Part shown: one piece after another, positions 11,763 through 42,577 of the stretch
Position numbering within the stretch: the first letter of the stretch is position 1
Layout: every line of letters starts with the position of its first letter
NCBI GenBank assembly: GCA_903859815.1
Contig: CAIOOA010000179.1
Location: 1-44,613, forward strand
Reading direction: 5' to 3'
Length of the DNA stretch: 44,613 bases
DNA from: an uncultured Methylococcaceae bacterium
GTDB lineage: Bacteria; Pseudomonadota; Gammaproteobacteria; Methylococcales; Methylococcaceae
Translations under genes and position numbers: made by a program
The notes under the pieces: generated by a model
What the model was told of the DNA's origin: nothing
Databases searched by the model: none
The model's input: the letters and a program-made list of their open reading frames with translations, nothing else

Positions 11763-13997
11763 TCAGATACTCTCCATCCCATCCACCCGTTGAAAACCTC
11801 TGGGCAAAGGATGTCCACGCTTGCCTCGTCCGGCTTCATAGGTTGCCAAATCATTGCCTTGCAGAGTCAAAAACCGCTTGCCGGCGATGATTTTCAGGCC
11901 AGTATGGGTAGGCAGGGCGCACAAGCCTATGATTCTATCAAACCCTTCGGCTAAATCGGAGGTTTTGATGTCAATCAGTTTATTGCCCTTGCCTTTATTC
12001 AGCACGGGTATCTCACTGAATGGGAATACCAATAATCGTCCTTGCAAGGTCACCACTGCCAGACGGTCGGTTGCCGGATCGTTAAACTTCATTGGCAATA
12101 ACACCTCGGTGTGTTCGGGTACGGTCAATAATGCCTTGCCGGCCCGGTTTTTGGTGGAGAATTCGCCCAATTTGGTGATGAAGCCATAACCCCCGGTGGT
12201 CGCGAGCAAATACCAATCATCATCTGAACCTGCCAACACGGTTTTGAACGTTGCCAATGGCGGCGGATTCAGTCGCCCCGTCAACGGCTCACCTTGGCTG
12301 CGGGCGGAAGGCAAGTCATGGGCCGAGATGGCATAGCTGCGTCCAGTGGAGTCGATAAAATAGGCGGGCTGGCTACTGCGGCCAAGGGCAGCGGCGAGGA
12401 AACCATCGCCGGTTCGATAGCCTAAGTTGGCGGCATCAATGTCGTGACCCTTGGCCGAGCGCACCCACCCTTTTTCCGACAAAATGATGGTCAACGGTTC
12501 GTTGGGAATCAACGAGGTTTCATCCATCGCTTGGGCGCTTTGCCTGACCACGATTGGCGAACGGCGGGCATCGCCGTATTTCTCTGCGTCTTGCGTCAAT
12601 TCCTTTTTTACCAGAGCGTGTAGCTTCGCCTTGGAACCCAAGATGCCTTGCAGTTTCTCCCGCTCCTTTTGCAATTCATCCTGCTCCCCGCGTATCTTCA
12701 TTTCCTCCAATTTGGCGAGGTGGCGCAACTTGGTTTCCAAAATGGCCTCGGTTTGGATGTCGGTCAGGCCAAAGCGAGCCATTAATACTGGCTTAGGTTC
12801 GTCTTCCGTGCGGATGATGCGAATGACTTCGTCCAAGTTCAGATAAGCAATCAGCAAACCTTCAAGGATATGCAGCCGCGCTTCGACTTTGGACAAGCGA
12901 TATTGCAAACGGCGAGTGACGGTTTGGGTGCGATAAACCAGCCACTCCACCAGAATCTCGCGCAGATTCTTCACCCGAGGCTTGCCATCCAAGCCAATCA
13001 TATTGAGATTGACGCGGTAACTTTTTTCCAAATCCGTGGTGGCGAACAAATGCGACATCAATTGTGCCGCGTCAATGCGCTTGGATTTAGGCATGATGAC
13101 CAAGCGAGTCGGACTTTCATGGTCGGATTCGTCGCGCAAATCCTCGACCATCGGCAATTTCTTCGCATTCATTTGCGCGGCAATTTGCTCCATGATCTTA
13201 TTGCCAGACACTTGATAAGGCAGCGATGTGATGATGATGTTTCCGTCTTCTTGCTCGTAACGGGCGCGTAGCCGAACCGAACCGTTGCCGGTTTGATATA
13301 GGCGCAAGATGTCTTCCTTGGCGGTGATAATTTCGGCTTCGGTGGGGAAATCCGGCGCTTTGACCAGTTCGCACACTTCTTCCAGCGTCGTTTCGGGATG
13401 GTCCAACAAGCGGATGCAAGCACTGACCACTTCGCGCAGGTTATGCGGAGGGATGTCGGTTGCCATGCCGACAGCAATTCCGGTTGCGCCGTTCAGCAGC
13501 AAATTGGGTAAACGGGCCGGCAATAATGACGGCTCGTCCATCGTACCGTCAAAGTTCGGTATCCAGTCCACCGTGCCTTGCTCCAATTCCGACAACAGCG
13601 TGTTGGCGTAAGCCGTTAGGCGGGCTTCGGTATAGCGCATTGCGGCAAAGGATTTGGGGTCATCCGGCGAACCCCAGTTTCCCTGGCCGTCAATCAGCGG
13701 GTAGCGGTAAGAGAACGGTTGCGCCATCAGCACCATTGCCTCGTAACAGGCGGAATCGCCATGCGGATGGTATTTACCCAGCACATCGCCGACGGTGCGA
13801 GCGGATTTCTTGTGCTTGGACAGCGCAGAAAGTCCAAGCTCAGACATCGCGTAAACAATGCGCCGCTGCACTGGTTTCAAGCCGTCGGCGAGATGCGGCA
13901 GGGCACGGTCTAGGATGACGTACATGGAATAATCCAAGTACGCCTTCTCGGTGAATTCTTTGAGGGGGATGCTTTCGTGGGATAGGGAAATGTTCAT
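11763..13997 (-). CDS. parC: DNA topoisomerase IV subunit A
   Basis: The 744-residue type IIA topoisomerase subunit works with ParE to unlink daughter chromosomes. The breakage-reunion domain has DGLKPVQRR (39-46), the quinolone-determining segment [14 protein letters not shown] with wild-type Ser82 and Glu86, and catalytic Tyr122 in [10 protein letters not shown]. The C-terminal beta-pinwheel domain is the short ParC type with weak blade repeats, not the GyrA type with a GyrA box, which favours ParC over GyrA, as does the total length. Its ATG overlaps the stop of the upstream hemerythrin gene by four bases (ATGA), an unusual partner. No parE is in the window. Confidence 0.96.
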
Positions 13998-14671
13998 TTA
14001 TATAAATCAAATGGCCTGAAATCAGATTCATAATCGATAGTTTCTACTAACACAGTCTGGATTTTACTTTCCAAGTCCGTGCATTTTTCTTGTAAATTCT
14101 TACATTTGATTTCCAACCCCTTATATTTTTTTTCCAAATTGGCATGAGCGTTTTTTGAGTCCATCCATAAGTTCATGACTGCATCCAGCATCATTTTGAC
14201 AGTGACTGAATCTAGTTTCTGTTCTTTGACGGTTTCAAATGCTTGCTGGGGGGTCATCCCCGATTTGATGCAGGCAATTTGTTCGGCCATGGCCAAATCG
14301 GTTCCCAAGATATGGAAGATTAGCCAAAATGCAATAAAGCGAACGATTTTATCCGCCTTATCAGTGCTGCCATCGTCTGAAGAGGAAAATTCGCTGAAAC
14401 GGTCCACGTCATATAAAAAGGAATTGTGTTCCATCCGATGCCTGGTAAAAAAACGGTTATCAATGCGGCTATCCTGCATCAACAGTTCTTCATCATGTAA
14501 ATGGGTTTTTGTGTAATGGATGAGAAGTCTGATTGCACTATCCAACTCCCCTTCAGATTTGATCCCATTTTTAATGTTGACGCAAAGTTTATTCAATAGA
14601 TCGAATAGGTTTTTATGCTGGGTATCCACCAAATCTAATTTTGTTTCAAATTTATTTGACCAAATAAACAT
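13994..14671 (-). CDS. Bacteriohemerythrin with C-terminal coiled coil
   Basis: The 225-residue protein has a hemerythrin four-helix domain with all expected di-iron ligands: His19, His57, Glu61, His78, His82, His120 and Asp125. Bacteriohemerythrins bind O2 reversibly, and in methanotrophs they are thought to deliver O2 to methane monooxygenase or sense oxygen. After residue 135 come a linker and a coiled coil (about 168-205) that could mediate dimer or partner binding. AAGGTG eight bases before the ATG supports the start. The stop overlaps the parC start (ATGA), so the two are translationally coupled. It is a paralogue of the next gene upstream; both share the FxWSxKF start and the DLAMAEQ-type segment. 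Composition is AT-rich. Confidence 0.92.
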
Positions 14672-14762: not shown

Positions 14763-15341
14763 TTATATGATATTATCAATATTTTTTGTGAGACTTTCTT
14801 CCAAGCGCTTACAATCGTCTCTGGCATCGAACCAGAGATTAATTACCGAGTCAAGCATCAGATTAAAATTTTCGGGGTCAGTTTTGTTATCCTTAATGTT
14901 ATCATAAGCTTCCCGTGGGTCTTTGCCTGATTTAATCAAGGCTAATTGCTCAGCCATGACTAGATCGGTACTTAATATATGAAATGTGAACCAATGGGTG
15001 ATAAAACGGATTATCTGCTCCAATTGACCAATAATTCGGCGATCATAGCTGCTTGCATTATTTTTGAAACGATCAATATCATATCTAAAAGATGAATGCT
15101 CCATTATGTGTTTGGAAAAATGCCTATAATCGATGTGATATTCCCTCATGATGAGTTCTTCATGATGTAAATGGTTTTTAGAATAATGGACTAATATGCT
15201 TATAGAACTTTCAATATCTTCATCATCTATTTTCCTTAATTGTAGTTTAGTGGTTAGTGTGGCAAGTAGATTGAACAAATTTTTATGTTCTATATCCAAA
15301 ATATCAATATTAGTCAAAAACTTGTCTGACCAGCTAAACAT
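14763..15341 (-). CDS. Bacteriohemerythrin
   Basis: The 192-residue paralogue of the neighbouring gene keeps every di-iron ligand: His19, His57, Glu61, His78, His82, His121 and Asp126. The helical region after the domain is shorter than in its neighbour and lacks the long coiled coil. AAGAGG eight bases ahead of the ATG supports the start. It lies 56 bases after the co-polymerase gene and 91 bases before the first hemerythrin gene, all on the minus strand, so a run of co-polymerase, two hemerythrins and parC may be co-transcribed. The pair looks like a tandem duplication followed by divergence of the C-termini. Confidence 0.92.
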   Translation of the reverse strand: MFSWSDKFLTNIDILDIEHKNLFNLLATLTTKLQLRKIDDEDIESSISILVHYSKNHLHHEELIMREYHIDYRHFSKHIMEHSSFRYDIDRFKNNASSYDRRIIGQLEQIIRFITHWFTFHILSTDLVMAEQLALIKSGKDPREAYDNIKDNKTDPENFNLMLDSVINLWFDARDDCKRLEESLTKNIDNII

Positions 15342-15397: not shown

Positions 15398-17488
15398 TCA
15401 TGTTACATCCTCATGGTTGAGCAATGCAGGATGTTCTAGCGTTACCCGGTTGGCTGACAGACTAGGTCCGGGCGGGGATAGCCGCCCATAAAGGGCAAGG
15501 TTCTTGGCTGGAAATCGGCCTACTATACGTTCCAGTTCAGATAACTTAATGCCTTGCCTGACCAGATACGCAATATAAGTGTGGCGAATAGTGGCTGCAT
15601 CTATTTCCTCTGGGTGTGGCAGTCCCGAGTCGAAACTGGCGCAAGCAATTCGGGCGGATATTTCTTCGGCATCAATAGGTATTTCCGGCGAGTCATCCGG
15701 TGTGAATGCCAGAAATGCTTGTTTTAACCTGGGTGTCAGTGGGACCGACCTTGGCGAAGTTCCTTCAATGTTAATCCGATTCAATGATAAGTCCACATCC
15801 GCTACCCGCAAGCTTACGGCTTCCTCCACGCTTAAACCGGATAATAACAGTCCAATCCAGCGCTTGGTTTTAAGGTCGGAAGAGTCTAATAATATATGGA
15901 TTTCGTGTGCAGTCAATTCGCGCGGGAAGGGGCTGTCCAAGGCGAGCGGGGTGGGTTCTTGCTGGGCGAGCAGGGCTGGGTTTTGCTCGTCCCGGTTGCC
16001 AGTGGGAAGGCTACCTTGGACAGAGTAGAACTGGAAACTGGGCATTGCCGGCTGGGAGGGATGAGGCGTTTCATCCATTCGCGTCAGGTAATCGTATAGC
16101 CAAATGAATAAGATGGCAAAAATGAGGCTTGCAACCACGCTGATGCCGGTGTCACGCCAATAATGCGGCCAAAAAGCCTGCGTTGGTGGGTAGGCTCGCT
16201 CGACAACCTGCAAGGGAGGATAGGGTTCCTCGGGCCTAGATTCGATATGAGCCAGTTTGGCCTGGGTTTCCCGGTGCATTCCCTCCAGTCTCTTAAGATC
16301 GTCTTCCATGGCTTGTTGCTCGGCAAAGCGATTGGTGAATTCAGACGACTCCATCTTCATCTCGGCGATCTTTTGCCTGAGTTCCTGAGCCGATTGCAGT
16401 GCGGCAACATAGTTTTGTTCGGTCTGGCTGAGCAAAGCGCGGCTACCATATTCAAGCTTTTGCTTTACTGCCGCCTCGGCTTGGGCAAGTTTTTCAGGGA
16501 TTTGCCTCATCTGTGGATTCATCGCCATGTAGGCCGGTGTGAAACGGCGTTTTACTTCTTTCAAAGTTTCACGCAATTCCTGAACTCTTTTCTCCAAGGC
16601 GGCAAGGCCCGGACCGTCTTCAGGGGGCATGACGGGTTCGCCACGGGCGATTGCCGCCCGAATGGCATCCAATTTGGCTTTTGCCTTTACTTGCTCATCG
16701 GTTGCTTTGTTGTAAGCTTCATTCAAACCCTTCAGCTTCATCATCGGAGTGTTATCCGAGTCTGTCCTTGATAATATGTCATGGGTTGACCGAAATGCCG
16801 CCAATTTTTTTCGGTTTTCCGCGATCTTTTTTTCCAATTGCTTGGATTCTTCTTCCAAAGCAGCATAATTATTGCTTGTGGCATCGCGCATGGTTTGTTC
16901 CCGCAGTGCTTGGTAGGCATCAATCCAAGCGTTGACCAGCGGCGCTAGGATTTGAGGCGCTGGCCCTTGGGCTTTCATTTCGACCATATTTGTCCCCTTG
17001 ACCATATCCACACTCAGCAATCCACGGAGGTCGCTCAGGTTCAGGCGAGGGGCTCCCGCATTTTCCTTGTGTTCGTAAAGCCGGTGCAGCGTCTCCTCGA
17101 ATACTGGGACTCCGAGTAATATTTGCCTCTGCAAGGTGACGTGTTCGGGGTTTGCCGGGTTTTCTGACCGCTCAATGGCCGCTAAAGGAATGCTAGGCAC
17201 CAGACCATCATCTTGTGTCCTGATTTGGTGGACGGTAACGTTGCCGCCGCCAATTCCGGCTTCCTCGGGTGCGACAGTAAGCAGTGATGCCGTGCTTTGA
17301 TAGATCGGCTCGCGCAGCCAAACATAGGCCAAGCTGGCGGCCAGGCACAGGGAAAAAATAGCGATAAACAGCAAGAGACGCTGATTTTTCGGAGGTTTAG
17401 GTGTTTCAGACTCTCCAAAGGATTGTCCTGAATTATCTGGCATGCCTTGGAAACTTGGTATGATTTCGATGGAGGGTGGTACTGACAT
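15398..17488 (-). CDS. Wzz/GumC-type polysaccharide co-polymerase fused to a degenerate tyrosine-recombinase-like domain
   Basis: From the ATG at 17488 the protein has 696 residues (a TTG 22 codons earlier is possible but less likely). A short cytoplasmic head is followed by a membrane helix at about 37-58, a large periplasmic part with long coiled coils (about 200-415), a proline-containing approach segment (YPPTQAFWPHYW), and a second membrane helix at about 448-467. That is the plan of chain-length regulators. After a proline-rich linker, residues about 523-668 read like a phage-integrase catalytic domain: ELTAHEIHILLD, GLSVEEAVSLRVADVDL, VPLTPRLKQAF, TIRHTYIAYLVRQGI and ALYGRL. Arg I is replaced by Ser553, the box II His by Ala632 and the later His/Trp by Arg658; only Arg635 and Tyr667 remain. 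Recombination is therefore unlikely. It is divergent from a secreted protein and a glucan synthase. No BY-kinase is present. Confidence 0.8.
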   Translation of the reverse strand: MSVPPSIEIIPSFQGMPDNSGQSFGESETPKPPKNQRLLLFIAIFSLCLAASLAYVWLREPIYQSTASLLTVAPEEAGIGGGNVTVHQIRTQDDGLVPSIPLAAIERSENPANPEHVTLQRQILLGVPVFEETLHRLYEHKENAGAPRLNLSDLRGLLSVDMVKGTNMVEMKAQGPAPQILAPLVNAWIDAYQALREQTMRDATSNNYAALEEESKQLEKKIAENRKKLAAFRSTHDILSRTDSDNTPMMKLKGLNEAYNKATDEQVKAKAKLDAIRAAIARGEPVMPPEDGPGLAALEKRVQELRETLKEVKRRFTPAYMAMNPQMRQIPEKLAQAEAAVKQKLEYGSRALLSQTEQNYVAALQSAQELRQKIAEMKMESSEFTNRFAEQQAMEDDLKRLEGMHRETQAKLAHIESRPEEPYPPLQVVERAYPPTQAFWPHYWRDTGISVVASLIFAILFIWLYDYLTRMDETPHPSQPAMPSFQFYSVQGSLPTGNRDEQNPALLAQQEPTPLALDSPFPRELTAHEIHILLDSSDLKTKRWIGLLLSGLSVEEAVSLRVADVDLSLNRINIEGTSPRSVPLTPRLKQAFLAFTPDDSPEIPIDAEEISARIACASFDSGLPHPEEIDAATIRHTYIAYLVRQGIKLSELERIVGRFPAKNLALYGRLSPPGPSLSANRVTLEHPALLNHEDVT

Positions 17489-17739: not shown

Positions 17740-18273
17740 ATGAAATTCTGGAGTGTCAGTACCCCGCCCACCAGCAGTGTTAGCCTTGGCCTTTCCGTGC
17801 TTAGCTTCATAATACTTGCGGCTATCCCCCTCACCCCAAGTATGGCTGAGGATGCTGCCAAACCTGCCGCCCCGACAGCAGTGAAGCCTGATTCTCCCCC
17901 TGCCGCAACCAAGTCGGCTCCATCGTCCAAACCCGAAAACCCGGCATCCAAATCAGCACAATCGAGCAAACCCAAAGCTAAACAACCCGGTGCATTGGTG
18001 TCAGCCGAATGTGAGCGCACGGGCAAGCGCGTGGTCGCTGCATTGGCTAGGGACGATTCGGGGGCAGCCAGCCAGTTTTATACGTTTTACACAGCGTTTA
18101 AGTGTTCGCCGCAAGCCTTGGCTTCGGCATTCGGGTGTATAGTCAACCTACAGAAAGACAAACCTGACGTTTACAATCCCAAGCCTGAGGAGATCAACCA
18201 ATGTTGGGAGCAGCCGTCCGTAATCCCCAAGGATTTACCTGAAAACCCGGCGAACAAGGACGGGGCGCATTGA
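17740..18273 (+). CDS. Secreted protein with low-complexity linker and four-cysteine domain, unknown function
   Basis: I do not recognise the family. The 177-residue product has a signal peptide (hydrophobic 16-33, likely cleavage after PSMA near residue 36), then a linker of Ala, Pro, Ser and Lys (about 37-85). A compact C-terminal domain has four cysteines (in AECERTG, FKCSPQ, FGCIVN and NQCWEQ) that could form two disulfides. AAGAAGG lies nine bases before the ATG. It is followed 153 bases later by the GH17-GT2 glucan synthase on the same strand and is divergent from the co-polymerase gene, so a periplasmic or surface role linked to polysaccharide is plausible. The 251 bases upstream (17489-17739) must hold the promoters of both directions, but no convincing pair of boxes was seen. 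Confidence 0.8.
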   Translation: MKFWSVSTPPTSSVSLGLSVLSFIILAAIPLTPSMAEDAAKPAAPTAVKPDSPPAATKSAPSSKPENPASKSAQSSKPKAKQPGALVSAECERTGKRVVAALARDDSGAASQFYTFYTAFKCSPQALASAFGCIVNLQKDKPDVYNPKPEEINQCWEQPSVIPKDLPENPANKDGAH

Positions 18274-18426: not shown

Positions 18427-21111
18427 ATGCGCCTAATCGTTCTGATTTCTGCCATCATTGCCGCTTTCGCCCAATTTGCCGTCTGGTATGTGGCTCAACA
18501 AGTGGCTGAACCCCCTGACTTTCCCGACAAGATCGCATCGCTTTCGCTGGCTTACGAACCTTCGCATCCACCCTTCAATGGGCCAGAGAAAAGCCCTGAA
18601 GATATCAGTAAAGATCTCGAAATGGTGGCAAAAATTGCCAAAAAGGTGCGGATATACACGTCTACAGGCAGCGAAGCGAAAATTCCCGAATTGGCTCAAA
18701 AGTATAATCTTGATGTCAGTTTGGGTGTCTGGCTGAATGACGAGCGCGATGCGGCTGGCAAGGTTAACCAAGATATCAAAGATATGAACCAAAAGGAATT
18801 GGATGCCGCAATCAAACTCGCCATAGAAAATAAGAATGTCAACGAACTGATTGTCGGCAACGAGGTCATGTTGCGGGCGCGCATGGAGTACCCGGATATA
18901 ATCATTGTTGAAGGCGACGAAAATAAAAAGAAATTGTCGCCGGAAGCACAATTGCGCTTGAAAGATTTGATTGAATATATCAAACAAGCCAAAGCCAAAA
19001 GCACTAAGCCAGTGACTACCAGTGAAGGTTGGAATGATTGGGTCGCCATTCCTGAGTTAGTCAATGAGGTTGATTTCATCACTACCCATAATCTGCCATT
19101 CTGGGAAGAAATTGGTGCTGAAAATGCCGTTCATTATGCGCTAGACAAGTATAATTTGTTGCGCAAGACCTATAATAAGGATGTTCTGATTGGGGAATTT
19201 GGCTGGCCTAGTCAAGGTTACAATCGTCTTAGGGCAATCCCCAATCCATTAAAACAAGCTCAAGTGGTCAGGGAGTTTCTCAATGAAGCGAAAAAAAGGA
19301 ATCTTACAAAATTCAATATTGTAGAAGCCTTTGACCAACCTTGGAAAAGTACGATTGAAGGCAGTGGTGCCGGACCATATTGGGGTTTATACGATATTAA
19401 CCGCGTCCTCAAATTCCCTTTGAGCGGTCCTGTGCAGAAGAGCCGAATCGAGTTTGCCTATGGGGGAATCATCCTCGGCACTCTCATTACCCTATGGGGC
19501 TTGAGACGCAGGCGTCCGACTTTCGGACATGCCTTGGCTTATGCCTTGGCTGCCAATGCTTTGGGCGGGGGTCTGATTTCTGCTGCGCTTTATCCGCTAG
19601 ACTATTATTTAAACCCCGGCCTTTGGATCATGTGGGGGATCGGTTTTGTGATGATGCTGCCGTTGACGGTCATCACTTTGGCCAAAGTGCATGAAATTGC
19701 CGAGGTCATGTTGGGCCATGAGCCTGTCCGGCTGATTGAGCCCGGTAAGAATATGCCGAAATTGCCTGACCCGGCCCCGATGGTTTCCATTCATGTCCCG
19801 GCTTACAAGGAGCAGCCAGATATGTACAAGGCGACCTTGGATAGCATGGCCGCATTGGATTATCCAAATTTTGAGGTGTTGGCGATTGTCAATAACACCA
19901 CCGAAGAATATTATTGGAAACCGATTGAAGAGCATTGCCAAAAGTTAGGGCCGCGTTTCAAGTTTGTCTTTTTACCCAAAGTGTCAGGGTTCAAGGCGGG
20001 GGCGCTCAACATGGCGCTAAAGGAAATGGCCCCGGATGCGGCAGTTATTTGTGCGGTTGATGCAGACTATCAAGTTGACCCCAATTGGTTGAAAGACTTG
20101 GTGCCATGGTTCAACGATCCTAAAGTGGCCATCATCCAAGCCCCGCAAGACCATCGGGATGGTAATGATAATCTGCTTAAAACCATCATGAATGCAGAAT
20201 ATGCCGGGTTTTTCGACATTGGCATGGTGCAGCGCAATGAAGACAACGCCATCATCGCCCATGGCACGATGTTGATGGTCAAACGTTCAGCCTTCGACGA
20301 AGCCGGCGGCTGGGCCACCGATACCATAGTGGAAGACACCGAACTTGGGCTACGCCTGTTGACCCTTGGTTATCACGCGCACTACACACGGGAACGCTAT
20401 GGTTGGGGTTTGCTCCCGGACACCTTGCTGGCATTCAAAACGCAGCGGCATCGCTGGGCTTACGGGGCAATGCAAATCATCCGCAAACATTGGCGGCACA
20501 TGCTGCCAAAGTCCAAGACGCTCACCCCGCAGCAGAAATACCATTTTGTGACGGGTTGGTCCTATTGGTTTTCCGATGCAGTTGGCACGGCAGTGTCGTT
20601 TTTGAACTTGATCTGGGTGCCATTGATTATCCTGTTCGATCTGGCCTATCCTGCGATTGCTTTGACAGTGCCGGTTCTGACTGCCGTCTTTGTGAATGTG
20701 GTTCATGCTTGGTTGTTGTACAGTCGGCGGGTGTTGATCCCCAAAAAACAGATTTTCGGGGCGGCTTTGGCGGCAATGAGTTTGCAATACACCGTATCGA
20801 AGGCAGTGGTTGAAGGAATGGTCACCGAAGGTTTGGCCTTCAAGCGCACTGAAAAAGGCGGATTGGTCAAAAAGAAAAAAGCTGACCGGCCCGCTCAAAC
20901 AGAAACCATAATGGGTTTGTTGTTGCTTTCCGGGGCAATTTGGTTATGGATGTCTAATCAGTTCGATGTCTATGAGCAAAATTTGTTTGCATTGACGGTG
21001 TTTATCCAAAGTATCCCATTTTTATGCACCACGACAATGAGCGTGATTGAGGAGGTGCAGAATTGGAGTACAGCCCGAGCTGAGCCAAAGGATGTCAATG
21101 CTGAGCAATGA
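18427..21111 (+). CDS. Membrane beta-glucan synthase, GH17 domain fused to GT2 domain (NdvB-like)
   Basis: The 894-residue protein begins with a signal-anchor helix (3-25) and a periplasmic GH17 domain (about 35-340) with both catalytic glutamates: Glu146 in VGNEV and Glu257 in GEFGWPS. Membrane helices near 345-365 and 370-420 precede a cytoplasmic GT2 domain with SIHVPAYKEQP, DADYQVDP (Asp545, Asp547), VEDTELG (Glu636, Asp637) and the processive-enzyme motif QRHRW (Gln673, Arg676, Trp677). Further helices close the protein. This is the architecture of the NdvB-type enzymes that make cyclic or linear beta-1,3(1,6)-glucans in rhizobia and Pseudomonas, where the GH17 part acts as transglycosylase. 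UDP-glucose is the likely donor. No strong Shine-Dalgarno is visible. A second GH17 protein with the same fold lies at 40832-42577. Confidence 0.93.
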   Translation: MRLIVLISAIIAAFAQFAVWYVAQQVAEPPDFPDKIASLSLAYEPSHPPFNGPEKSPEDISKDLEMVAKIAKKVRIYTSTGSEAKIPELAQKYNLDVSLGVWLNDERDAAGKVNQDIKDMNQKELDAAIKLAIENKNVNELIVGNEVMLRARMEYPDIIIVEGDENKKKLSPEAQLRLKDLIEYIKQAKAKSTKPVTTSEGWNDWVAIPELVNEVDFITTHNLPFWEEIGAENAVHYALDKYNLLRKTYNKDVLIGEFGWPSQGYNRLRAIPNPLKQAQVVREFLNEAKKRNLTKFNIVEAFDQPWKSTIEGSGAGPYWGLYDINRVLKFPLSGPVQKSRIEFAYGGIILGTLITLWGLRRRRPTFGHALAYALAANALGGGLISAALYPLDYYLNPGLWIMWGIGFVMMLPLTVITLAKVHEIAEVMLGHEPVRLIEPGKNMPKLPDPAPMVSIHVPAYKEQPDMYKATLDSMAALDYPNFEVLAIVNNTTEEYYWKPIEEHCQKLGPRFKFVFLPKVSGFKAGALNMALKEMAPDAAVICAVDADYQVDPNWLKDLVPWFNDPKVAIIQAPQDHRDGNDNLLKTIMNAEYAGFFDIGMVQRNEDNAIIAHGTMLMVKRSAFDEAGGWATDTIVEDTELGLRLLTLGYHAHYTRERYGWGLLPDTLLAFKTQRHRWAYGAMQIIRKHWRHMLPKSKTLTPQQKYHFVTGWSYWFSDAVGTAVSFLNLIWVPLIILFDLAYPAIALTVPVLTAVFVNVVHAWLLYSRRVLIPKKQIFGAALAAMSLQYTVSKAVVEGMVTEGLAFKRTEKGGLVKKKKADRPAQTETIMGLLLLSGAIWLWMSNQFDVYEQNLFALTVFIQSIPFLCTTTMSVIEEVQNWSTARAEPKDVNAEQ

Positions 21112-40831: not shown

Positions 40832-42577
40832 ATGCATTATCAATTCTTTCCCAGAAGCCTATCATCACTAATGCATTGGATTAACAATATGCTTTCGAAA
40901 CGTCTATTCGTTTACATCATCCTCGCGTTCTGCGCCTTGATTTCGATCACGTATTGGTGGAAATTGAGCCAGCCGGTGACGATTGTCGACACCCCGAATG
41001 ACCATCTTAGCTGTGTCTCCTATTCACCCTTCCATAAACCGGGTCAAACGCCTTTGGACGGGAATATAACCATCAGTGAGAAACAGATCGAAGCTGACTT
41101 GACGGCATTGGCACAAAGTTTCGATTGTGTTCGAACCTATTCCGTCCTTGAAGGCGTGGATAAAGTGCCGGGGATCGCGCAAAAGCTTGGCATGAAAGTC
41201 TTGCTCGGAGTCTGGATTGGAGCCAAGCAAAGCCGCAACGAAAAGGAACTGGCTATTGCCATTGATTTGGCGAACCATTACCCCTCCGTCATACGTGCCG
41301 TCATCGTCGGCAACGAGGTGCTGCTGCGCACAGAGCAATCGCCTAAGCAGGTCAGTGCTTATGTCGAGCGGGTCAAGGCAGCAGTACCCGCAGGCGTGCC
41401 GGTCACCTACGCCGATGTCTGGGAGTTCTGGCTACGCTATCAAAAGGATTTGCTGGATTCAGTGTCATTTGCCACCGTGCATATCCTGCCCTATTGGGAG
41501 GATGACCCAATTGGGATAGACGATGCAGTCGGGCATGTTAGCTATATATACAAGCATGTAAAGGATGAGTTGAAGGGCAAGGAGGTGTTGATTGGTGAAA
41601 CCGGGTGGCCTAGCTATGGTCGCCAGCGTCAGGAGGCGGAACCCTCGCTGGTCAACCAAGCCCGATTCATCCGCGAATTTGCACTACGTGCGGAAGTGGA
41701 AAAAATCCCCTATAACGTTGTCGAAGCATTCGACCAGCCCTGGAAGCGCACCTCAGAAGGCGCAGTGGGCGGTTACTGGGGGCTTTACACGGCTGACGGC
41801 ATCTCCAAGTTTCCTTTCCGCGGTCCCGTACCCGAAGCCCCGTTTTGGAGTAAGATTGCTTATGGGGCGATGTTCGCATTCTTCGGCTTGTTTGCAATCA
41901 ACCAGTGGAGACAGCGCAAACTGGATGGTGCCTCCCTGTCAGCACTGCTTGCCATCAGTATCAGTGGCGGAGGTGCTTGGGTAGCTTTTTTTCGCGACAT
42001 GGTGATGACCAATCGCATGATGTTGGAATGGGCAAGCACTGGCCTGTTCGCACTATTGCTTATAATCGCCACTTGGGTACTAGGCAACACCCTAGCCAGT
42101 TGGTGTTCGACCGGCAATCCACCGCCAAGCTTTGCGTCGGCCAGCCAAATGGCTCGGTGGCTTCGGCGCAAAGACCAAAGCTTCGAGGGAAGTTCCCTTC
42201 TGTTGAGCGCATTGCGGTTCGTGTTTTTGTTCGGGGCCGCTTTGGCTTGCGTGTTGTTGGTGTTTGATTTGCGCTCTCAGGATTTTCCTGTGGCGCTGTT
42301 TTCAGTGCCTGTCGTCGGCCTTGCCTTGTTGGCTTGGATCAAAGGCAAGCCTGAAGCGGATCTGGAGGAAATCGTGCTTGCGGGTTGGATTGGCTTCGCA
42401 GGGTTGTGGACAGCCATAGCCGAGCATATTGTCTTGGTGCGTGGCGAGCCGTGGCGTTGGGCGAGTGACATCAACCCCCATGCGCTTGAATGGGCGCTAC
42501 TATGCGTGTTGTTGGCCGCTTCGGTGCTAGGCCCGATATTCGTCGAACTGCTCACGGGCAAGCGTCAAAACGCCTAG
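40832..42577 (+). CDS. Membrane-anchored GH17 glycoside hydrolase without a GT2 domain
   Basis: From the ATG at 40832 the protein has 581 residues (ATGs at 40871 and 40889 are alternatives). An N-terminal anchor helix (LFVYIILAFCALISITYWW) is followed by a periplasmic GH17 domain with both glutamates: Glu162 in VGNEV and Glu256 in GETGWPS, and VVEAFDQPWKR in common with the enzyme at 18427. The C-terminal half is a set of about seven hydrophobic helices, and the GT2 domain of the larger paralogue is missing. A beta-1,3-glucanase or transglycosylase role in glucan branching or turnover is plausible; the rhizobial ndvC type, a GH17 membrane protein linked to beta-1,6 branching, is one parallel. 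Its 3' end overlaps the convergent small membrane gene by 51 bases. Confidence 0.9.
   Translation: MHYQFFPRSLSSLMHWINNMLSKRLFVYIILAFCALISITYWWKLSQPVTIVDTPNDHLSCVSYSPFHKPGQTPLDGNITISEKQIEADLTALAQSFDCVRTYSVLEGVDKVPGIAQKLGMKVLLGVWIGAKQSRNEKELAIAIDLANHYPSVIRAVIVGNEVLLRTEQSPKQVSAYVERVKAAVPAGVPVTYADVWEFWLRYQKDLLDSVSFATVHILPYWEDDPIGIDDAVGHVSYIYKHVKDELKGKEVLIGETGWPSYGRQRQEAEPSLVNQARFIREFALRAEVEKIPYNVVEAFDQPWKRTSEGAVGGYWGLYTADGISKFPFRGPVPEAPFWSKIAYGAMFAFFGLFAINQWRQRKLDGASLSALLAISISGGGAWVAFFRDMVMTNRMMLEWASTGLFALLLIIATWVLGNTLASWCSTGNPPPSFASASQMARWLRRKDQSFEGSSLLLSALRFVFLFGAALACVLLVFDLRSQDFPVALFSVPVVGLALLAWIKGKPEADLEEIVLAGWIGFAGLWTAIAEHIVLVRGEPWRWASDINPHALEWALLCVLLAASVLGPIFVELLTGKRQNA

Follow-up and report, generated by a model that had tools for sequence, protein, structure and literature searches.

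One gene in the window analysed here, the whole 44,613-nucleotide stretch of a contig from an uncultured Methylococcaceae bacterium, raises the question of what a domain resembling a tyrosine recombinase is doing at the C-terminal end of a membrane protein built like a polysaccharide co-polymerase. A sequence-only reading had described the product as a chain-length regulator of the two-helix Wzz/GumC plan, in which a catalytically dead integrase-like core stands where related proteins carry a BY-kinase, and had suggested an adjacent glucan synthase as its partner. Proteins with the recombinase fold are known to cleave and rejoin DNA, and a few phage repressors use the fold to bind DNA; here it appears to have parted from DNA and to have been built permanently into the machinery for an envelope polysaccharide. 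Since an unrelated fold occupies the place of the kinase in sister proteins, the case could also serve to test whether the cytoplasmic domain of a co-polymerase serves chemistry or only assembly.

The minus-strand frame at 15398-17488 contains no internal stop and encodes 696 residues, whose parts are collected with those of the neighbouring genes in Table 1. Hydropathy peaks (19-residue windows) begin at residues 38 and 447, and the full-length AlphaFold2 model predicts helices at residues 34-58 and at residues 443-469, with long helices in the interval 178-417; pLDDT falls below 50 over residues 472-518, and a confidently modelled domain spans roughly residues 519-690. This model was built from 44 sequences and has a pLDDT of 79.5 and a pTM of 0.40, so that the mutual arrangement of its domains is unreadable. 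Over the 44 members, mean conservation is 0.59 in the periplasmic part, 0.38 in the linker and 0.54 in the recombinase-like domain, in which the three motifs picked out beforehand start at residues 551, 633 and 665.

Table 1. Features of the fusion gene and its divergent neighbours, in positions of the window
Feature	Positions	Strand	Basis
Co-polymerase/pseudo-recombinase fusion gene, 696 aa	15398..17488	minus	Open frame; orthologues
Transmembrane helix 1, residues 34-58	17315..17389	minus	AlphaFold2 helix; hydropathy peak from residue 38
Periplasmic part, long helices, Wzc/PslE-like, residues 59-442	16163..17314	minus	Wzc fold alignment; PslE/Wzc profile matches
Transmembrane helix 2, residues 443-469	16082..16162	minus	AlphaFold2 helix; hydropathy
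Linker, predicted disordered, residues 470-518, cytoplasmic by topology	15935..16081	minus	pLDDT <50 over 472-518; conservation 0.38
Pseudo-recombinase domain, residues 519-690	15419..15934	minus	AlphaFold2; XerA fold alignment; sequence profiles
Ser553, place of catalytic Arg I	15830..15832	minus	Arg in 0/44 members
Ala632, place of box II His	15593..15595	minus	His in 0/44; one row is a gap
Arg635, catalytic Arg II position	15584..15586	minus	Arg in 42/44
Arg658, place of late His/Trp	15515..15517	minus	His in 2/44, Trp in 0/44
Tyr667, nucleophile position	15488..15490	minus	Tyr in 37/44
177-aa protein between fusion gene and GH17-GT2 gene	17740..18273	plus	Looks exported by eye; relatives in L009, L010, L011
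GH17-like and GT2 glucan-synthase-like protein, divergent neighbour	18427..21111	plus	Pfam GT2 4.2e-26; aligns with GH17 neighbours at 33-34%

The N-terminal half is that of a PCP-2 co-polymerase, with membrane helices flanking a long-helix periplasmic domain and with homology to known co-polymerases. Residues 28-469 of the full-length model align with Wzc (7nhr_C) at Z 14.8 and rmsd 5.6 over 212 residues; because this rmsd is high and proteins with long helices can by chance reach a Z of about 13, the assignment leans also on sequence matches. A profile of this half matches PslE at E 2.8e-7, its top co-polymerase match (PDB 9v75, 9v6l), and Wzc at E 9e-7. Matches to co-polymerase families of NCBIfam range from 1e-12 to 2e-6, among them TIGR01005 (1.3e-12) and TIGR03007 (3e-10) over the N-terminal half, all under their curated cut-offs, and Pfam PF02706 reaches an E of only 0.024; when the Pfam Wzz model was run against the genome that contains the window, it picked out a single different gene and missed the fusion gene. 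The PslE match ends at residue 485 of 662-670, PslE was not listed by the domain profiles, and the accessible portions of the literature on PslE, including PMC6813494, give no account of its C-terminal part. Wzc and the other PCP-2a proteins with a BY-kinase (PDB 7nhr; PF02706, PF13807, PF13614) share with the fusion the two helices, the long-helix periplasmic part and a cytoplasmic C-terminal domain, but they carry a kinase there, whereas the fusion has no kinase or AAA_31 match in its Pfam list up to E 10 and has a recombinase fold in place of the P-loop tyrosine kinase. Hydropathy, predicted helices, the Wzc fold match and sequence homology thus all bear out the two-helix Wzz/GumC plan. On other contigs of the window's genome there are one ordinary Wzz protein and three Poly_export genes.

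The identity of the C-terminal domain was approached through its structure and through sequence profiles, because the Pfam evidence is too weak alone. Modelled by AlphaFold2 from a 13-member alignment (pLDDT 88.6, pTM 0.86), the domain retrieved tyrosine recombinases from the PDB in a Foldseek search, with XerA at the top (3.4e-7); VIA-align superposed it on XerA (5hxy) at Z 16.1 and rmsd 3.0 over 152 residues, and residues 519-690 of the full-length model on an archaeal Xer at Z 15.5 and rmsd 2.7 over 149. Further structural matches of the same fold were MrpR/YopR and SroF. A domain profile of 13 relatives matched the PDB sequences of P2 integrase (3e-10) and archaeal Xer (2e-8), the 44-member profile matched archaeal Xer at 6e-12, and XerA/XerD and an integron integrase are among the domain's best sequence relatives in the profile searches. 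NCBIfam assigns the C-terminal part to NF040815 (XerA) at 1.2e-8, below its curated cut-off. Pfam PF00589 gives E 0.022 for the whole protein and 7.7e-4 for the domain alone, also below the curated cut-off, and matches 9 of 13 relatives at E<=10 (best 1.1e-6); across the genome to which the window belongs it gave 9 places, the fusion gene not among them, and by itself this model may be called only suggestive. Structure prediction, fold search and profile search together identify the tyrosine-recombinase catalytic-domain fold that had been proposed from the letters, and the place of a core-binding domain is taken by a low-confidence linker and a membrane helix.

The nearest records found belong to uncultured Methylococcaceae, at three loci with identities of 74, 80 and 97%; we take the fusion-bearing bacteria to be a group related to known methane oxidisers. 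Among 38 genomes of the window's family, 18 match the whole protein at E<=0.001, and 14 of these matches are strong (best piece 1e-144 or better) and reach the C-terminal domain, that in G029 by two frames; the one weak match that was checked (L041) is another co-polymerase. Across 251 genomes of the order, with at most 14 candidates scored per genome, the domain profile found at least 68 places in at least 65 genomes at E<1e-20, 64 of the 68 in frames longer than 600 aa (the others being in G029, G240, G137 and G049), and none of the weaker matches lies in a frame longer than 440 aa, which is what ordinary recombinases would show. At least four carriers outside the order (G305, G341, G562, G571) appeared in a class sample of 369 genomes, with at most nine candidates scored per genome, and at least one further carrier within the class (G936, 680 aa) in a phylum sample of 398 genomes, with at most eight; no fusion was seen outside the class in that phylum sample, where the other matches lie in frames of 282-426 aa. 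The fusion is therefore common in the order and scattered elsewhere in the class, and the survey of homologues that the sequence-only reading had advised recovered conserved homologous fusions. In genus g42, genomes G223 (L095), G235 (L105) and also G145 hold a second, diverged fusion copy, which in L095 and L105 adjoins a gene of an SNF2-helicase cluster.

This distribution bears directly on whether an assembly or sequencing error joined two separate genes, an explanation whose probability we regard as negligible. A near copy in G029 (L015/L010), 97% identical, does break near codon 400, giving one frame of 459 aa and an overlapping one of 319 aa, as an artefact would allow, but the long frames recur at 64 of the 68 places in the order, including the single-contig genomes G005 and G164, and the domain is under purifying selection (see below). 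The fusion frame is unbroken, at 653-789 aa, in 42 of 43 regions, G029 being the exception. One stop falls inside the match in 6 of the 68 order rows (G018, G041, G049, G058, G061, G073), and G018, G041 and G058 have whole frames despite it. The homologues, mostly in unbroken frames, thus rule out an artefact or frameshift fusion, and the hidden stop or frameshift that had been named as grounds for doubt was not found.

The co-polymerase half tells the same history from the other side. Searched alone against 274 genomes, with at most six candidates scored per genome, it gave at least four matches beyond 1e-100 (G000, G044, G305, G341), all of them genes known to carry the recombinase-like domain; the next matches, three at 3e-29 to 9e-26, are Wzz-GNVR-AAA_31 proteins, that is, PCP-2a proteins of the kinase type, in line with the earlier statement that relatives bear a BY-kinase at this place. 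Close relatives of this half carried the recombinase-like domain every time in both searches. Because the near relatives all have the dead domain and the next ones a kinase, the dead domain, judged by these matches, marks one co-polymerase subfamily at the place where sister proteins bear the kinase. The fusion is a real, conserved architecture and belongs with PCP-2 co-polymerases, not with recombinases.

The extent of catalytic loss was read from an alignment of 44 members, comprising 40 of the 68 order places and four class members and leaving out 28 order places and G936. Ser553, Ala632 and Arg658, the replacements on which the proposal of a dead enzyme had been built, are all present in the translation, as are Arg635 and Tyr667. 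At the Arg I position the members have Thr (22), Ser (17), Leu (2), Ala (2) or Gly (1), and at the box II position His occurs in none, one row being a gap; both residues are absent in 44 of 44. His stands at the late His/Trp position in two members and Trp in none, and Lys is found in two at the poorly aligned Lys position. Arg II is kept in 42 of 44, R580 in 43 of 44 and the tyrosine in 37 of 44, the others having Leu (5), Cys (1) or Phe (1) there. The domain thus lacks the full Arg-Lys-His-Arg-His/Trp-Tyr set, and because members without Tyr or Arg II retain the rest of the domain, no common chemistry is left. The Leu-for-Tyr members (L097, L106, L107, L108, L115) form one sublineage of family f8 and keep Arg II; L103 and L114 have lost Arg II and keep Tyr.

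The residues that persist suggest the main rival explanation, namely that a pocket formed by Arg580, Arg635 and Tyr667 binds a small phosphorylated ligand, for instance polyprenyl phosphate or a sugar nucleotide, with the domain acting as a sensor setting polymerisation. Conservation of these three residues, beside box II His, Lys and late His/Trp positions that vary freely, is what such a pocket would predict, but the domain is still kept in the 7 of 44 members that lack the tyrosine and the 2 of 44 that lack Arg635, and R580 may be structural. We consider a ligand sensor unlikely.

Charge also separates the fusion domains from recombinases. The 44 fusion domains have a median pI of 5.03 (4.38-6.24) and a net charge of -7 (-12 to -2), compared with 9.77 (8.95-11.23) and +6.5 (3 to 13) for 14 recombinase domains, and the two pI ranges do not overlap; the 14 are a non-random sample, drawn from our own profile matches and from the window's genome, in which L007 and L008 are near copies and the matched stretch was widened by hand for L003, L007 and L008. 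Because the fusion domains are acidic and the recombinase domains basic, DNA binding by the pseudo-recombinase domain is unlikely on this comparison. It is nonetheless the task that an MrpR-like protein would perform, and a membrane-anchored domain of this kind might tie DNA to the envelope or regulate polysaccharide genes: MrpR/YopR and SroF share the fold, MrpR is described in the available part of PMC10516654 as a DNA-binding repressor that has lost recombinase function, and Arg II is retained in most members. Against this stand the acidity of 44 of 44 domains where 14 of 14 recombinase domains are basic, the stretch of pLDDT below 50 and the membrane helix where a core-binding domain would be, and the absence of Arg II and of Tyr each in some members, and we judge continued DNA binding quite improbable.

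The domain has one origin and has diverged in step with the co-polymerase part. By a quick tree method the 44 fusion domains form one clade against the 14 recombinase domains (SH-aLRT 99), and the evolutionary distances of the two halves correlate at r 0.72, a value reached in 0 of 2000 permutations (maximum 0.22). Domain dN/dS is 0.113 against L011 and 0.133 against L010, and that of the co-polymerase part 0.065 against L011, ratios that are approximate, as dS exceeds 1 against L011; domain dS against L009 is saturated. Judged by these ratios, the fusion domains are under purifying selection. When viral contigs were scanned with the domain alignment, 27 stretches matched a pattern and none of them was confirmed, so a phage source was not upheld, and the five plasmid records that matched are all annotated as tyrosine autokinases.

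Several known systems share part of this design. The Xer, P2 and integron tyrosine recombinases (PDB 4a8e, 5hxy, 5dor, 2a3v) have the catalytic-domain fold and sequence homology in common with the fusion, which differs from them in having no visible core-binding domain, no Arg I and no box II His, and in being acidic and membrane-anchored. The SPbeta-group repressors MrpR/YopR and SroF are likewise cases in which the recombinase fold was reused for another task; however, as far as the consulted portions describe it, MrpR has a core-binding domain and acts as a soluble repressor that binds DNA, whereas the fusion is a membrane co-polymerase. A further comparison is with EcpK-EpsV and HfsB-HfsA, PCP-2 proteins with a BY pseudokinase, which according to the available part of PMC12004946 also have a dead enzyme at the base of the co-polymerase on its cytoplasmic side; yet EcpK, by the same partial source, is a separate protein with a kinase fold, and the dead enzyme of the fusion is fused and of unrelated fold. 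In keeping with the earlier remark that no such system was known to be described, searches of the open-licence PMC literature, judged by titles and the beginnings of abstracts, yielded no description of a co-polymerase fused to a recombinase domain.

What the computations establish is the recombinase fold and its position, the loss of the catalytic set and of basic charge, descent as one clade, wide inheritance and purifying selection. Because the domain is maintained by selection over the order and yet is acidic and has neither a catalytic set nor a core-binding domain, a protein-binding module is the best reading, and we think that the protein is probably a PCP-2/GumC/Wzc co-polymerase in which an Xer-type pseudo-recombinase at the BY-kinase place serves as a phosphorylation-independent assembly or docking module. 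The domain would act off DNA through protein-protein contact, and might hold or time the assembly of the periplasmic co-polymerase ring or, alternatively, dock a cytoplasmic glycan enzyme or exporter to the co-polymerase. In the portion of PMC12004946 available, phosphorylation of the Wzc kinase is held to control octamer assembly and disassembly, and EcpK is proposed as a phosphorylation-free scaffold for EpsV. The pseudo-recombinase domain, although of unrelated fold, might similarly take over the task of the Wzc tyrosine kinase without any phosphorylation, as EcpK may for EpsV. A scaffolding role fits the data, against which it must be set that the near-invariant R635 and R580 could mean a ligand pocket, that a glycan cluster around the gene is missing across the order, and that the domain is no more conserved than the periplasmic part. 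In true recombinases a C-terminal segment passes between neighbouring subunits. A more specific proposal, to which we give a modest chance at best, is that these proteins form a phosphorylation-free co-polymerase class in which the fold builds or breaks a cytoplasmic ring beneath the periplasmic one, an exchange of tails replacing the phosphorylation cycle of the tyrosine kinase.

The genes around the fusion include one candidate partner. The glucan-synthase-like neighbour has a GH17-like N-terminal half that Pfam missed and that keeps the NEV and GEFGWP motifs, presumably the holders of the GH17 catalytic glutamates; the 177-aa protein beside it has no Pfam match. All five fusion-bearing genomes of the window's genus have a divergent GH17-GT2 gene within about 4 kb of the fusion: the two are back to back in the window and G029, with just the 177-aa gene between them, in G026, G027 and G028 a separate GH17 gene also intervenes, and G026 and G027 additionally have a PpnN-like gene there. 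A GH17 protein is encoded directly upstream of the fusion in genus g42 (G223, G235; G145 by coordinates), and L092 has one 342-aa GH17-cluster gene about 5 kb away. The suggestion of a glucan-synthase partner nevertheless holds at most as a candidate within the window's genus and fails as a general rule, since 37 of 43 regions, the remainder, have no GH17 near the fusion, GH17 genes of this kind occur in G025 and G030, two further members of the window's genus in which no fusion was found, and GH17 relatives are widespread in the order (162 of 251 genomes). The assembly-or-docking reading does not depend on this partnership.

Beyond the window's genus the fusion's context is often glycan-flavoured, yet variable, and no operon is conserved over the whole order. 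Directly downstream in 11 of 43 regions, five from the window's family and six from family f5, is a gene of cluster C1, an MsbA-like ABC exporter (two members profiled); one of the 11, L110, was counted by eye, because an antisense frame hid its gene. Of the 11, eight continue with a gene of cluster C2, a PHP-type 3',5'-nucleoside bisphosphate phosphatase/RNase RNM (two members profiled), and in four regions of family f8 the downstream gene belongs to cluster C13 (GT2, one member profiled). Other regions show unrelated neighbours; in four of them these belong to a cluster with an SNF2 helicase as its profiled member. A further idea is that the domain captures the cell's own XerC/XerD or FtsK at the membrane and so links polysaccharide export to chromosome segregation: its best sequence-profile relatives do include XerA/XerD and an integron integrase, but no supporting context was found and the charge of the domain is reversed, which makes such capture highly improbable. 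Within the window itself, a second GH17-like protein is encoded in a 594-aa frame at 40883-42553 (plus strand), and two tandem hemerythrin-domain proteins (13994-14671 and 14763-15341, minus strand) adjoin the fusion gene, followed beyond them by a gene that reads by eye as topoisomerase IV subunit A.
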